Positions 5,002-29,672 of a stretch of 38,092 nucleotides of DNA are shown here, piece after piece (position 1 is the stretch's first letter; each line of letters begins with the position of its first letter). Location: assembly GCA_002778465.1 (NCBI GenBank), contig PFBV01000006.1:1-38092 (forward strand), written 5' to 3'. Origin of the DNA: Candidatus Magasanikbacteria bacterium CG10_big_fil_rev_8_21_14_0_10_36_32 (GTDB lineage Bacteria > Patescibacteriota > Patescibacteriia > Magasanikbacterales > GWA2-37-8). Below the pieces are notes generated by a model, which saw nothing but the letters and a program-made list of their open reading frames with translations, did not search any database and was not told where the DNA came from. The translations under genes were made by a program, and so were the position numbers.

Positions 5002-5310
5002 ATGGAAATAGAATCAAAACAACAAATTTTAGAACGCCGGAAAGAGATTGAACAGGAGCTCGTGGAAATGCTCAAAGAAACTGAGAGCGATTTTACCTTG
5101 GATCATGTCCGAGACACTATTTATAACGAGGAAGATAGCGACGACATGATGAAAGTCGTGGCTATGTTTGATCGGGGCGGAGACGCTTCGGAATTAAGTA
5201 ATATTCTTGAAATAACAAATGACGCCTGGAATTATTTTCCGCACAAGGTGCTCGGTGGCATCTCGCCAGCTGAAAAGTTGTTTGAGTACAATCAAAATAA
5301 AAAGCAATAA
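5002..5310 (+). CDS. Small hypothetical protein of the defence operon (102 aa)
   Basis: A 102-residue soluble protein. The first 30 residues are a charged, probably coiled-coil helix (repeated E/K/Q with regular hydrophobics), followed by an acidic middle and a C-terminal stretch with NDAWNYFPHK and LGGISPAEKL. I do not recognise the family. It starts 10 bp after the TIR gene and is followed after 3 bp by another short acidic protein. Its base composition looks like that of the Res and nuclease genes, not the more A+T-rich RT and TIR genes. A small accessory or regulatory subunit of the restriction system is possible but unproven. Confidence 0.7.
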   Translation: MEIESKQQILERRKEIEQELVEMLKETESDFTLDHVRDTIYNEEDSDDMMKVVAMFDRGGDASELSNILEITNDAWNYFPHKVLGGISPAEKLFEYNQNKKQ

Positions 5311-5848: not shown

Positions 5849-5885
5849 ATGTGTGGTCTTGAAAACTGGCAAAAGGAGAAAAACA

Positions 5886-6242
5886 ATGGCAACAGATGGA
5901 CCCACCCCGCCTCCCTGTGACCCTGAAATCTTCAAGAATGGCACGGGCCTGTGTGTCGTCGATGGCAGTTCCAACGCTGTAGAGTGTTGGGTACAATCGG
6001 TGGCAAAGAAGGCAAACACGAAGGTCGACTGGCATTATAGCGGTGGACGCGCGAATGTCCTACACCTAGGCGACGCCGACAGCTACCAGCGAGCGCTCAA
6101 CGCGGTCCATGAACTCACAGGCGAGCTCAAGGGACACATCCTCAGCGTCGGTGGCCCCGCTATCTATCGGGCTGGTGATACATTGCCCGAAGGGACAATC
6201 GCGATTGACCCAGACTTTGGTCCAATCGTTATGCGCCAATAA
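5886..6242 (+). CDS. G+C-rich orphan hypothetical protein (118 aa)
   Basis: The start is ATG 5886, placed by AAAGGAG 7-8 bases upstream; a longer reading from 5853 would begin at the predicted transcription start. The 118-residue protein has a proline-rich N terminus (GPTPPPCDPE), two early cysteine regions (CDPE and GLCVVDG), the stretch VDWHYSGGRANVLHLGD in the middle, and a C-terminal GPAIYRAGDTLPEGTIAIDP. No signal peptide or membrane segment is seen. I do not recognise a family. By eye the gene is above 50% G+C, while DNA on both sides is far more A+T-rich, and its codons (ctc, gtc, gcg, ggc) are unlike the neighbours. Together with its private promoter and terminator this suggests recent acquisition or an unusual expression class. 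Confidence 0.75.
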   Translation: MATDGPTPPPCDPEIFKNGTGLCVVDGSSNAVECWVQSVAKKANTKVDWHYSGGRANVLHLGDADSYQRALNAVHELTGELKGHILSVGGPAIYRAGDTLPEGTIAIDPDFGPIVMRQ

Positions 6243-6261
6243 TATATTAGAACTCGCAACA

Positions 6262-6298
6262 AACCCCCAACGAGAATAAATAAGGGGGTTCTTTTTTT
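6262..6298 (+). terminator. Intrinsic terminator of the G+C-rich gene
   Basis: AACCCCC (6262-6268) pairs with GGGGGTT (6284-6290), followed by a run of seven T (6292-6298). Confidence 0.85.
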
Positions 6299-6542
6299 AT
6301 GTAAAATTTGGAATGTAAACTTTCTTGACGAAACACAACAAAAAAACATAATTGCTCAACCATATTTTAACTTGTTGATAAAACCATACAATGATAAAAT
6401 AAAGATACTTTTTCCATTTTGATTTCTTATTTAACCAAATGATTTTCCGTACCAAGCCTTTTAATCTATTTTGGATTTTTTTTAATACCAATTAGTTTCT
6501 ACTTAATTTTCATTGTGCCAAAAAATTAAAATAATAAATGAC
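6299..6542. other. A+T-rich intergenic region before the permease
   Basis: No convincing gene here. Two weak plus-strand promoter candidates can be read: TTGACG (6325-6330) with CATAAT (6347-6352), and TTGTTG (6372-6377) with TAAAAT (6395-6400). Either would give a leader of more than 130 bases to the permease ATG at 6543. No stable leader structure is evident to me. Confidence 0.35.
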
Positions 6543-7514
6543 ATGAATAATCTTTTTTATCCGATTAATTTGTTTTCCGATTGGTTTGTGTATAATTTGT
6601 TAAAAATAAATCCGAGTAACACTTTTTCCGGAGTGTTGCGTTTTTTTGTCTACGATTATCTTAAAATTATAATATTGCTAATTATAATTACACACCTAAT
6701 GAGTTTGATCCGTCATTATTTGCCAATTAAAAAATTTAGAAATTTTTTACTTAATCATAAACTGTATGGAATGGATTATTTTCTAGCTTCAGGATTTGGC
6801 GCCATAACACCATTTTGTTCCTGTTCATCTATACCATTGTTTATAGGATTAATACAGGCAAAAATTCCAATAGGCGTAACTTTTTCTTTTTTGATTACAT
6901 CTCCGTTAATTAACGAGGTAGCTATTGCTTTATTCATCGGCCTGTTCGGTTGGAAAATAACAATATTATATATTGCGGCTGGAATTTTAATCGGGGTTAT
7001 TGGCGGAATTATTTTGCAAAAATTAAAAATGGAAAAATATATTATTAACTTGGAAGAAACAAATCAATGCTCATGTTGTAATAAAAAAATTATTTTAACA
7101 CCTCAACAAGTAATAACAAAAATAGTAGCGGAAGCTTTCAATATTGTTAAAAAGGTTTTACCTTACATCACATTGGGTGTGGGCTTGGGAGCATTTATTC
7201 ACGGTTATGTGCCTCAAGGTTTTTTTGAACAATATTTGCAGCAGTGGGGTATTTGGGGTGTTCCCATCGCTGTAATTGTGGCTGTACCACTCTACTCAAA
7301 CGCCAGTGGAATTATTCCAATTATTCAATCTCTCATCACCAAGGGCGTGCCTATCGGCACAGGCTTAGCTTTTATGATGTCTACTGTCGGATTATCCCTA
7401 CCCGAAGCAATGATTCTTAAAAAAATATTAAAATGGCCGCTTTTGGCAACTTTCTTCGGAATAGTTACTGCTGGCATAATACTCATTGGGTATTTATTTA
7501 ATTGGATAATATAA
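6543..7514 (+). CDS. ArsP/DUF318-family permease (YraQ-like)
   Basis: A 323-residue multi-spanning membrane protein of the predicted-permease family PF03773. The hallmark is PFCSCSSIP after the second helix, followed by SFLITSPLINEVA. A second cysteine cluster, CSCCNKK, lies in the cytoplasmic loop before the C-terminal half, which repeats the fold and includes PLYSNASGI. Members include ArsP, which exports trivalent organoarsenicals; many others are unassigned and may move metals or thiol-bound species. I start it at ATG 6543; an upstream TTG at 6513 would add ten polar residues and has no ribosome site either. It stands alone, convergent with the DUF5654 gene. Substrate unknown. Confidence 0.9.
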   Translation: MNNLFYPINLFSDWFVYNLLKINPSNTFSGVLRFFVYDYLKIIILLIIITHLMSLIRHYLPIKKFRNFLLNHKLYGMDYFLASGFGAITPFCSCSSIPLFIGLIQAKIPIGVTFSFLITSPLINEVAIALFIGLFGWKITILYIAAGILIGVIGGIILQKLKMEKYIINLEETNQCSCCNKKIILTPQQVITKIVAEAFNIVKKVLPYITLGVGLGAFIHGYVPQGFFEQYLQQWGIWGVPIAVIVAVPLYSNASGIIPIIQSLITKGVPIGTGLAFMMSTVGLSLPEAMILKKILKWPLLATFFGIVTAGIILIGYLFNWII

Positions 7515-15442: not shown

Positions 15443-15467
15443 TTTTTTAAATAACAAAATTAATCAT

Positions 15468-15489
15468 CTTGCTATTCAGCAAGTTTTTT
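15468..15489 (+). terminator. Terminator of the metallophosphoesterase operon
   Basis: CTTGCT (15468-15473) pairs with AGCAAG (15478-15483), followed by six T. Confidence 0.75.
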
Positions 15490-15498
15490 ATTTAAAAA

Positions 15499-15517
15499 CC
15501 CCCGATAAAATCGGGGG
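15499..15517 (-). terminator. Terminator of the minus-strand gene ending at 15530
   Basis: CCCCCGAT (15499-15506) pairs with ATCGGGGG (15510-15517). On the minus strand the hairpin is followed by five T. Confidence 0.85.
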
Positions 15518-15529
15518 TGGACACAATCA

Positions 15530-15868
15530 TTAATCGCCTTTTAAAATCGACCGAGCTTTTTTCCGCCAGTCTTCTCCTGGTTTTACGTCATAAACATACA
15601 AATCCACTGAACGATCATGCGTATAAATTGCCCGTCCGGCAATTACCACCGGGATATAATGTTCGGATGAAGAAATGAAAAAATGAGGAGAAGGTAGCAT
15701 GGCCAAGTCACCAATATTTGGAATGGGTATGGCTTTAGGCCAACGTATTAACCAAGGTTCTCCCACAGCCACAGTAGCTCCGTTTGAACATCGTCTCCAT
15801 ACAATTGCTCGAACTTTAATAAACCTTCGTCCAAACAAATTTTTCAGCCAAGCCTTAATTCTTTTCAT
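15530..15868 (-). CDS. Small basic hypothetical protein (112 aa)
   Basis: 112 residues with a basic, amphipathic start (KRIKAWLKNLFGRR), then a beta-rich part with VRAIVWRRCSNGATVAVGEPWLIRWP cut by prolines, and a final acidic/basic end. No family recognised. Its ATG lies within the last 14 bases of the zinc-ribbon gene (15855-16094), in another frame, which implies translational coupling. The pair is followed by a terminator. A role in nucleotide or nucleic-acid binding could be imagined from the basic start but is not shown. Confidence 0.65.
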   Translation of the reverse strand: MKRIKAWLKNLFGRRFIKVRAIVWRRCSNGATVAVGEPWLIRWPKAIPIPNIGDLAMLPSPHFFISSSEHYIPVVIAGRAIYTHDRSVDLYVYDVKPGEDWRKKARSILKGD

Positions 15869-16094
15869 TGTGCAACCCTAACGCTTTTTCACTCTCGTAT
15901 TTGTTCTTCATATCAGACCATTTGCGAGCGGTCATTCTCCAGTGCAACAAACGACCACAATATTCACAGTTAATAAAAACTAACAACAAACTTCCTTCAA
16001 TCAAGGGTTCTCTACAAAAATCTACCGAAAAAAAACTACTCTTACGGCATCAGGGACACACGTGGTCCATTCCGAAACTTCTTTTCTGTTTCAT
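15855..16094 (-). pseudogene. Zinc-ribbon protein gene with one in-frame TGA (79 codons)
   Basis: A complete minus-strand frame with ATG at 16094 (GGAGGGA three bases upstream on the minus strand) and TAA at 15855-15857, broken only by TGA at codon 15 (16050-16052). The reading is MKQKRSFGMDHVCP, TGA, CRKSSFFSV, later Cys27, then NCEYCGRLLHW (Cys43, Cys46). The TGA falls between the proline and cysteine of a CPxC zinc knuckle. CGA (Arg) to TGA is one transition and CPRC would be a normal knuckle. Everything else (ribosome site, frame, stop overlap with the next gene) is intact, so the lesion is either very recent, a sequencing error, or the codon is read through. A SECIS-like hairpin after the TGA is not evident. 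Confidence 0.65.
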
Positions 16095-16213
16095 GGTCCC
16101 TCCTTGTTGGGTTATTTATGATTTTATATTTGGCGATTATTAAAGAACAATTCTAATTAATAAATTAGGTGATTTTTTAAGGTTAACAAAAAAAATTGTA
16201 CCTGTCAAACAAA

Positions 16214-17545
16214 TTATAACAACAAATTATTACTAGTTGGTTCGGTCACGCCTTTAAAAACAACATCCATTATATTTGAAACTCCAAATTGCCGCCCATC
16301 TAAAAACCCAGACATGGCCGCCTCAGCCAACCAACCACTGTTTATCCAATCACATAACCATTCACAAGCGGCTTTCGGATCATCCTGTCCGATTCCCGCA
16401 CCAATTGTTTTTAACCATAGTTTATTATAAATTTCTTGCGATCCTATCGGTGGAGCTGTAATAACTGGCAAACCTAGAGCGGCATAAAAAACAAGCTCAC
16501 TCGGCTTAGTCCATAACACATCGGTGGTACGCAACGCTTCACTAAAAGACTTGAAATAATCTTCTTTATGAATATCAAAAATAATTTTTAAATTTTTACC
16601 GAGTATTTTTTCCAAACCGGCTTTTTTAATTTGACGACGAAAATAAAGATAAACATCATTGCGACTACCTGCAACTAAATTAAAATTAATTTCTTCATTT
16701 ATTAATGATTTCTTTAAACTCCATAGAATATTTTTAGCAAGATCTTTTTGTGCTCCAGCACCGCCCACTGCGAAAGTAAGTGTTGGGGGATGATCATGTC
16801 TCTCATCAATCTTAATATTTTTTAAAAACTGTTTGACGGTTTCTGAATATTTTTTGCGATAATGTTTTTCCGGATCCAAATTAATAATTCTATCAGCTAG
16901 GTCAGCTTTTAATCGTTCCAACTTATTTCCACCAAGATTTTCTTCAGGCAATGGAAAACCGGTTAAAAAAATTCTATTAGAAAGTACACCGTATAATTTC
17001 AAGCGTTCCACTACACGACGACATGGCGCCAGATACTTAATTCTGCTTTTTGCTGGATTTAATGCTACCCAAGTACGACTAATATCAGCATCGCACAACA
17101 CGCAATAAATATCATTTTTAAAATCATGTTCTTCGGCAAAAAAAGCAACAGCGAAAAAAGTGGTAATTAAAGGAATATCCTTTTGATTTAGATAATCTAT
17201 TAAATCTTTACCCCAACCAGAATGAATCAGCGCATACATTTGTTTCAATTGAAAATTTGGCTTCGATAAATTTCTGCGCGGATAAAATTTGGGTATAGCC
17301 TGAAATTTATCATAGGTATTGAAAATAAACTGTCCTACCAACGGAATTCTAGTTAAGCGAGAAATAAATTCATATATTCTACGAGAACTTTTCCAAATGG
17401 TTAAATCATTTTTTGGAATACCCGGATAATTATTGGCATTGATGACATGTCCAGTTGGAGAAAGGTGTTTTAACGGATAGGCCGCCCGCTGATGTCCATA
17501 ACCCATATCAACAGAGACTACCCAAGCTTTTTTTTCCATATTCAA
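16214..17545 (-). CDS. GT-B glycosyltransferase, MurG/MGDG-synthase-like
   Basis: 443 residues. The N-terminal motif VSVDMGYGHQRAAYPL resembles the GGGHxxAA donor-acceptor loop of MGDG synthases and MurG-type (GT28) enzymes. The C-terminal half holds FAVGGAGAQKD, a second glycine loop, and WTKPSELVFYAALGLPVI followed by PIGSQE, the nucleotide-sugar binding region of this clan. The likely reaction is transfer of a sugar to a lipid or glycan at the membrane. Residues 36-130 and 150-200 carry large insertions compared with MurG. It is the downstream member of the surface cluster 16214-19671, 32 bp after the FkbM gene. Acceptor unknown. Confidence 0.75.
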   Translation of the reverse strand: MNMEKKAWVVSVDMGYGHQRAAYPLKHLSPTGHVINANNYPGIPKNDLTIWKSSRRIYEFISRLTRIPLVGQFIFNTYDKFQAIPKFYPRRNLSKPNFQLKQMYALIHSGWGKDLIDYLNQKDIPLITTFFAVAFFAEEHDFKNDIYCVLCDADISRTWVALNPAKSRIKYLAPCRRVVERLKLYGVLSNRIFLTGFPLPEENLGGNKLERLKADLADRIINLDPEKHYRKKYSETVKQFLKNIKIDERHDHPPTLTFAVGGAGAQKDLAKNILWSLKKSLINEEINFNLVAGSRNDVYLYFRRQIKKAGLEKILGKNLKIIFDIHKEDYFKSFSEALRTTDVLWTKPSELVFYAALGLPVITAPPIGSQEIYNKLWLKTIGAGIGQDDPKAACEWLCDWINSGWLAEAAMSGFLDGRQFGVSNIMDVVFKGVTEPTSNNLLL

Positions 17546-24763: not shown

Positions 24764-25153
24764 TTAATTAAAACAACGTCTCACATACACTCTCCTATAA
24801 TTCACTCCTTCGGCGTTTTGCCAAAGTCGTCCTCTGGCGGACCATGAAAATTCAAATCGACCATTTATGTCAGCGCACAGATTATGCTCGGTGTTGGAAA
24901 AAATGGTAATAAACAACTTACCCCTGTCTCCCTCGGTTGCAAACTGACAGCGTACGTGTAAACGCGAACCTTTTTGAGTTGAAATTTCCATATAAACTTC
25001 TCGGCCATTGCTAATAATCATATTATAGCAAACTCCATTAAGAGAAAACTTCGGCCTGGCTTTAATTTTTTTCAAGGCAGAATAAACTGCTCGCAAAGCT
25101 AAATTAATAATGGGAATTTCAGAAAATGTCTGGGTGTCACTAATTTTTTTCAT
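24764..25153 (-). CDS. Hypothetical basic protein (129 aa)
   Basis: The start is ATG 25153 (MKKISDTQTF), placed by AGGAG seven bases upstream; an ATG at 25177 would lie before the ribosome site. After a helical segment (about 20-35, ending KKIKARPKF) the sequence is mainly beta (SLNGVCYNMII, EVYMEISTQ, RLHVRCQFAT, KLFITIFS) with a tryptophan/arginine-rich end, GRFEFSWSARGRLW. No family recognised; the pattern would suit a single-domain beta-sandwich or barrel binding a polyanion. It is alone between terminators and 71 bp after the preceding glycosylase gene on the same strand. Confidence 0.65.
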   Translation of the reverse strand: MKKISDTQTFSEIPIINLALRAVYSALKKIKARPKFSLNGVCYNMIISNGREVYMEISTQKGSRLHVRCQFATEGDRGKLFITIFSNTEHNLCADINGRFEFSWSARGRLWQNAEGVNYRRVYVRRCFN

Positions 25154-25224
25154 TCTTACACTCCTATATGTTGGCAAAGAACTTTTTGGAATTATTTTAT
25201 ATCACCATTTTAAAATTTAGTCAA

Positions 25225-27783: not shown

Positions 27784-29103
27784 TTATGCGGTTAATAATT
27801 TGTCTAATTCCTCACGAGCTACCTTTCTGTCGTCCCAAGATATTTTTTGTCCGCCAGAAATAACGATACACGGCTCAGTGCCTTTGGCTGTAATAGCTAC
27901 CACATCACCGTTTCCGGCCAAATTAAAAGCTTTAGTAATCGCCTTACGGCGATCTATCTCAACAAATAAATCTTCGTTATCTTTTTTTCCAGCTTGTCGA
28001 ACTCCATCAGCAATCATTTGAGCAATGTCCCAAGGATCTTCGTCAAAACAATTAACATCGGTTACAACCACAATATCTGCTTCACGACCGGACAATTCAC
28101 CCATTTTAAAACGTTTTTGTTTATCTCGTCCTCCGCCATCAGATCCAATAATAGCTACTATTTTCTTCCCGGACAAAATTATCTGCCGTAAAGTTTTAAA
28201 CAAAGCGGATAAGCTTACCGGTTCGTGAGCATAATCAACCACCACTTTAAATTTTTGTCCTTGATCAATAAATTCCATCCTACCTTCAACGGTCTGTATA
28301 TTTTCCAAACCCGCAGCAATAGCTTCGTTGTTCACTTTTTGCGATTGTCCAACCGCAACAGCTGCCAATGCATTATAAACATTAAAATGTCCAACAAGAT
28401 TTATCTTGTTATTTTCTCCGTTAGCTAAAAATTCCGTACCAAATTCATCTGATTTAACAATTTTTCCTTCAACATTATTTTGTATATCTGTTTTGGTATT
28501 TTTCATCGTGTACACCCATTTTTCATCCGCCGAAAAATTCAAATAAAAATCCGAACTTGGATCATCAATATTGGCTATAATAATTTTATTAATATATTTT
28601 CCATTAATAATTTTATTCGGATATTTTTTTAAACCGGCAAAAATTTTACTCTTATCGTTTTTTAAATTTACAAACCCACCGTGCGCTTCCACATGTTCCG
28701 GAGACAAATTGGTAAATACCGCAATATCATACAATAAACCATAATGACGGTATTGCAATATTCCTTCAGACGAAGTTTCTACTACTGCATATTGACACCC
28801 GGCTTTAACCATTTGTTTTAGCATTTTTTGAATTTCGCCGCGTCCCAACATAGTCATTTTTCTTTCATTCAACCAGCGCTGTTCGCCAATTTGAAATTCA
28901 ACCGTACTTAATAAACCGACTTTGTGTCCGGCCGATTCTAAAACCGAAGCAATTAACCGACAAGTGGTGGACTTTCCCTTAGTACCCGTGACTCCAACAA
29001 CAATTAAACGTCGGGCTGGTCGTCCATAAAACCAATAAAAAAACCATGCCAACAACAGGTGCCCTAATTTTTTTATTTTTTTTATTAAACCGAGCATAAT
29101 CAT
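27784..29103 (-). CDS. Mur ligase family protein, MurE-like, lacking the N-terminal domain
   Basis: 439 residues. P-loop GTKGKSTT at 41-48, ETSSEG, the Lys region NLKNDKSKIF, VDYAHEP and GGGRDKQKR are MurE-type landmarks. MurE normally starts with a UDP-binding domain of about 90 residues; here the ATPase domain begins by residue 35, preceded by a hydrophobic basic stretch. The amino-acid-selecting motif DNPR of meso-diaminopimelate enzymes is replaced: the segment reads TDVNCFDEDP. The substrate could therefore be another amino acid or a different lipid-linked precursor. Its ATG overlaps the translin stop by four bases (ATGA), so translation is coupled. Confidence 0.85.
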   Translation of the reverse strand: MIMLGLIKKIKKLGHLLLAWFFYWFYGRPARRLIVVGVTGTKGKSTTCRLIASVLESAGHKVGLLSTVEFQIGEQRWLNERKMTMLGRGEIQKMLKQMVKAGCQYAVVETSSEGILQYRHYGLLYDIAVFTNLSPEHVEAHGGFVNLKNDKSKIFAGLKKYPNKIINGKYINKIIIANIDDPSSDFYLNFSADEKWVYTMKNTKTDIQNNVEGKIVKSDEFGTEFLANGENNKINLVGHFNVYNALAAVAVGQSQKVNNEAIAAGLENIQTVEGRMEFIDQGQKFKVVVDYAHEPVSLSALFKTLRQIILSGKKIVAIIGSDGGGRDKQKRFKMGELSGREADIVVVTDVNCFDEDPWDIAQMIADGVRQAGKKDNEDLFVEIDRRKAITKAFNLAGNGDVVAITAKGTEPCIVISGGQKISWDDRKVAREELDKLLTA

Positions 29104-29672
29104 TTTCTAATGCTTATCTCGTAATAAATCTGTTGAATTTTTCCCAAGGATTGTTTAGCCTGATCAAATTTCTGTCGATTATAGCCAGTCAGATTCATTT
29201 TAATCATTACACCAATAATTTCTTCCGCTTGCATCAAACACTGTTTAACGATATCAAATTTTCTTTCAGTCGCCGACTTAACAGCGTACCGAGCCAGCTC
29301 TCCCGGAACATCAGCTATGCCGCCAATATAAATATTTGGTTCAACATTTAAATCACCAATAGCACTTAATTTTTTATTTTTTAAACATTGTCTAAATAAA
29401 TAAGCTTCAACAAACTCTTCCAAACCGGCACGATAGGAGCCCTCATCAAACAAACTTTCATCTTTTTGATATTTTTTTTCTAATTTGCTAATAATATTTT
29501 CGGCTTCAGACAACAGCTTATCAGCTTCACCCTCAGAATCGCGCTGAAGGGCAAAAATCGCCTGTTTAGAGAGATGTTGAGCGTCACTCGCAAGTTTTAT
29601 CACATCACGCCTTTTTTCCGCATAATCAAGCAAAATTTGTTTTATTTTGGCAAAAAACTTTCTGTCTAACAT
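29100..29672 (-). CDS. Translin-family protein
   Basis: 190 residues, all alpha-helical. The C-terminal half carries the translin signature: YRAGLEEFVEAYLF, NIYIGGIADVPGELARYAVKSATE and GYNRQKFDQAK. Translin/TRAX proteins bind single-stranded nucleic acid and, in eukaryotes and archaea, form octamers with or without ribonuclease activity. The TRAX catalytic acidic residues cannot be judged here. It ends with TGA, the only TGA stop of a long gene in the window, in an ATGA overlap with the Mur ligase gene. A translin homologue in an envelope operon is unusual. Confidence 0.85.
   Translation of the reverse strand: MLDRKFFAKIKQILLDYAEKRRDVIKLASDAQHLSKQAIFALQRDSEGEADKLLSEAENIISKLEKKYQKDESLFDEGSYRAGLEEFVEAYLFRQCLKNKKLSAIGDLNVEPNIYIGGIADVPGELARYAVKSATERKFDIVKQCLMQAEEIIGVMIKMNLTGYNRQKFDQAKQSLGKIQQIYYEISIRK

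Follow-up and report, generated by a model that had tools for sequence, protein, structure and literature searches.

A small gene on the minus strand of the 38,092-nucleotide stretch of DNA analyzed here (the window) carries a single in-frame TGA within its first cysteine knuckle. The best explanation, with a probability of roughly 80%, is that a lineage-specific accessory gene was inactivated by a nonsense mutation, i.e. that it is a recent pseudogene, or that the stop is a single-base assembly error, both possibilities being taken jointly. Under this explanation a zinc-ribbon-like product of 79 residues, encoded by the first gene of a two-gene unit, would be cut by the UGA at codon 15. RF2 would terminate translation there and leave a peptide of 14 residues without a zinc ribbon, and the overlapping downstream gene, which is probably coupled to the interrupted one, would be translated less well after the lesion. 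An earlier note on this DNA had contrasted a remarkable reading, a read-through or recoded codon, with the plain one of a nonsense mutation or a sequencing error. The presence of RF2 and the use of TGA as a stop support the plain reading, whereas for the remarkable one neither SelA, a tRNA-Sec above the cut-off, a UCA tRNA nor a second case was found. The frame shares with nonsense-inactivated bacterial pseudogenes one stop in an otherwise intact frame and a normal termination machinery. It differs from them in that an intact relative is lacking here, and a functional ancestor is deduced from the motif and the start signals alone.

The interrupted frame and its surroundings

The frame of 79 codons extends over positions 15855 to 16094 of the minus strand and its translation (window:15855-16094:-) reads MKQKRSFGMDHVCP*CRKSSFFSVDFCREPLIEGSLLLVFINCEYCGRLLHWRMTARKWSDMKNKYESEKALGLHNEKN*. 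The TGA at codon 15 (16050-16052, minus strand) is located within the first knuckle, CP*C, and is the only lesion in the frame, which continues to CEYCG and ends with a TAA at 15855-15857. Peptides encoded beyond codon 15 include SSFFSVDFCR and EPLIEGSLLLVFINCEYCGR. A perfect Shine-Dalgarno (SD) sequence, AAGGAGG, is positioned 4 nt ahead of the ATG (16099-16105, minus strand). The ribosome site, the frame, the second CxxC and the stop overlapping the next gene, all of which had been described as intact, were confirmed in the sequence. An open reading frame on the opposite strand (15868-16143), which scored very poorly for codon usage (-28) and matched no Pfam family, was rejected as spurious.

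The second gene of the unit (15530-15868, minus strand) is intact and encodes an orphan protein of 112 aa, for which no relative was detected in the collections searched. Its ATG is located at 15868, and the TAA of the upstream frame lies inside it, giving an overlap of 14 nt. The downstream gene has no visible SD sequence of its own and is probably translationally coupled to the interrupted frame. The unit is followed by a terminator-like hairpin (15498-15518, minus strand). The upstream gene at 16214-17545 is kept in 22 of 25 genomes of the family, and analysis of synteny never placed the zinc-ribbon-like gene next to its homologs in the family genomes. The stretch downstream of this gene (window 15443-16213) is different in almost all genomes of the family, as would be expected of a site at which genes turn over rapidly.

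Both cysteine knuckles are present in the frame only if the UGA is read through. For the structure model the UGA was read as Arg and no alignment was used. The resulting read-through model, of medium confidence (pLDDT 65.7), comprises a pair of strand-knuckle-strand units followed by a C-terminal helix. Its best fold match in the PDB was weak (E 0.22) and fell on an archaeal 50S subunit chain of 91 residues. No Pfam, PHROGs or NCBIfam profile matched the read-through protein above the cut-off, and a PDB sequence search yielded no match. The designation as a zinc ribbon in the earlier note is thus based on the cysteine motif and on the zinc-ribbon-like topology of a modest model, and not on a family profile at cut-off. 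The CPxC and CxYCG knuckles are shared with small zinc-ribbon proteins (Zn_ribbon_9, Zn_ribbon_IS1595 and the RNA polymerase subunit P type), as are the strand-knuckle-strand units of the read-through model, whereas all profile scores of the frame lie far under the curated cut-offs. Judged from the cysteine motif and this modest model, the ancestral protein may have bound zinc.

Relatives of the read-through protein were found neither in 95 related genomes, which included no other member of the genus, nor in 381 genomes of the class, nor in GTDB contigs, IMG/VR, phages and plasmids. Exact-pattern scans of the viral contigs (IMG/VR) did not reveal a strain variant. The weak matches that did occur were attributed to chance, as they corresponded to unrelated genes read in another frame, to short segments containing additional stops or to zinc ribbons of a generic kind. 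The disruption is seen in the frame itself, and these genome, contig, viral and plasmid sets provided no intact homolog for comparison. As no relative was detected for either protein of the unit, selection on the frame cannot be demonstrated.

Coding status of the frame

A rival possibility, that the frame is open by chance in non-coding sequence between two genes and that its CP*C is an accident, was also considered. Among dinucleotide-shuffled versions of the 771-bp interval, 90% contained a stop-free run of at least 64 codons, so that an open frame by itself says little in favor of a gene. The four-cysteine pattern is better evidence than openness: in shuffles of the same interval C..C(12-40)C..C occurred in 0.6%, and its CP.C form in 0.05%. 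The codon score of the frame is about zero with respect to the long-gene model of the genome and below that of 96% of real gene segments, and a score at least as high is reached by 18% of wrong frames. Thus, the codon score alone cannot separate the frame from wrong-frame sequence. However, its value of -0.04 per codon is close to that of short SD-led genes, whose median is -0.005, and the unusual codon usage is thus consistent with a genuine accessory gene of the SD-led kind. An origin by chance would agree with the low codon score, with the frequency of long open runs in this AT-rich interval and with the lack of a relative in any collection searched, but it is unlikely in view of the rare cysteine pattern, a perfect SD sequence with an ATG, which is rare in this genome, the overlap with an intact downstream frame and the match in codon score to the SD-led genes. 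From the SD sequence, the four cysteines, the zinc-ribbon-like model and the terminator after the unit we infer that the frame was once a working gene.

Decoding of UGA in the genome

The assembly comprises 879,704 bases in 6 contigs and is 97% complete. RF1 and RF2 are both intact, and RF2 (prfB, 357 aa) harbors the SPF motif. Genome-wide, TGA terminates 55 of the 641 genes that are 150 aa or longer (8.6%), and thus serves regularly as a minor stop rather than having been vacated. The rarity of TGA pointed out previously holds within the window, where it ends one long gene only (29100-29672), but not for the genome as a whole. ARAGORN identified 47 tRNAs and a tmRNA; no UCA anticodon occurs among the 47, and the sole tRNA-Trp (CCA) has a normal anticodon stem of 5 bp (ATGGT/ACCAT). 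SelA was not found in the genome by a search that detected the E. coli control, and the tRNA-Sec model gave sub-threshold matches only, the strongest of which coincide with ordinary Ser and Leu tRNAs. The earlier note had proposed prfB, a suppressor tRNA and the selenocysteine machinery as checks, and the results for RF2, for the tRNAs, and for SelA and tRNA-Sec all favor its plain reading. Downstream of the UGA no SECIS-like or unusual RNA fold was observed, with z scores of -1.3 over 60 nt and -0.6 over 195 nt. A whole-genome scan for genes broken by a single stop yielded mainly neighboring genes sharing a frame and no comparable TGA case. A stop interrupts the first knuckle in two of 61 frames with paired CxxC knuckles, namely the present frame and one that is contained within a called long gene but read in a different frame.

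These features are relevant with regard to known recoding in small genomes. In a Patescibacteriota family with true reassignment of UGA to Trp, RF2 genes and UGA stops are missing, and read-through of UGA has been linked to a tRNA-Trp anticodon stem of 4 bp (PMC13092985). For two species of Gracilibacteria in which RF2 is retained and a UCA tRNA is missing, UGA was concluded to act as a stop (PMC8629427), and the genome analyzed here falls with these. Judging by its size and gene content, it looks like one of the Patescibacteria. It has an in-frame UGA and a small size in common with the Gracilibacteria and Absconditabacteria (Gly) and with the Patescibacteriota family (Trp), but in contrast to the UGA-reassigned lineages it has kept RF2 and UGA stops, possesses a normal tRNA-Trp and no UCA tRNA, and shows the UGA in one gene only. 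Selenocysteine insertion or a reassigned code, in which dedicated machinery reads the UGA, could be suspected from the cysteines adjoining the UGA and from the known use of UGA for Gly or Trp in some Patescibacteria (PMC8629427, PMC13092985). However, with RF2 present, TGA serving as a normal stop, SelA and a UCA tRNA absent and no tRNA-Sec above the cut-off, this explanation has almost no credibility, and could be upheld only by appeal to the part lacking from the 97% complete assembly. Thus, a striking in-frame UGA in a Patescibacteria-like genome requires no new code, which is a useful negative result.

Low-level read-through of UGA occurs in bacteria. Programmed or leaky read-through could produce a certain amount of the full-length zinc-ribbon protein with no need for a dedicated tRNA, and both the striking place of the stop and its being the only lesion in the frame would agree with this. 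The absence of other lesions is also less expected for an old pseudogene and counts against it. However, the presence of RF2, the 5-bp stem of tRNA-Trp and the lack of a special fold, of conservation and of a second example make such read-through very improbable. The narrower proposal that gene-specific read-through in the knuckle lets a minor fraction of ribosomes make the zinc ribbon, and keeps the downstream gene translated, again without a dedicated tRNA, deserves even less credence. Alternatively, the 14-codon frame might be a true leader peptide followed by a separate small gene that starts at the TTG of codon 31. A good SD sequence ahead of the short frame is in line with this, but no clear SD sequence precedes the TTG, the second half of knuckle 1 is located between the UGA and the TTG, and the ATG overlapping the UGA encodes just Met-Pro, so that this arrangement is highly unlikely. 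Restart of translation was considered as well and rejected, as the ATG in UGAUG yields only Met-Pro before the next stop and the TTG at codon 31 a product with one knuckle only. An interrupted accessory gene or an assembly error thus remains the preferred explanation.

The SD-led class to which the codon usage of the interrupted frame corresponds was recognized genome-wide. A strong SD sequence is located upstream of 48 of the 641 genes of at least 150 aa, compared to 8-13 in offset controls. In each size class the codon scores of SD-led genes are markedly lower (Mann-Whitney p 6e-6 to 3e-8). Examples in the window are found at 1433-2932, 5002-5310, 5853-6242 and 24764-25177, besides the interrupted frame at 15855-16094. 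In total, about 70 genes of the genome carry a strong SD sequence and most genes do not, although the 16S tail retains the anti-SD (GGATCACCTCC). Seven of ten sampled SD-led genes have no Pfam family, and for one lipoprotein-like SD-led family several diverged copies are spread over the taxonomic family. The SD-led, codon-atypical genes look like an acquired or fast-evolving accessory pool. The class provides a simple handle for this pool and may matter more than the result on UGA. The scan for stops also brought up an open reading frame (G000:C4:165899-167185; 5899-7185 of its locus, minus strand) that by eye resembles a reverse transcriptase. Ahead of this putative reverse transcriptase, and in frame with it, the peptide WFFPRRRFSVRAADIRPNNQ is encoded, which is reminiscent of the repeats of diversity-generating elements.
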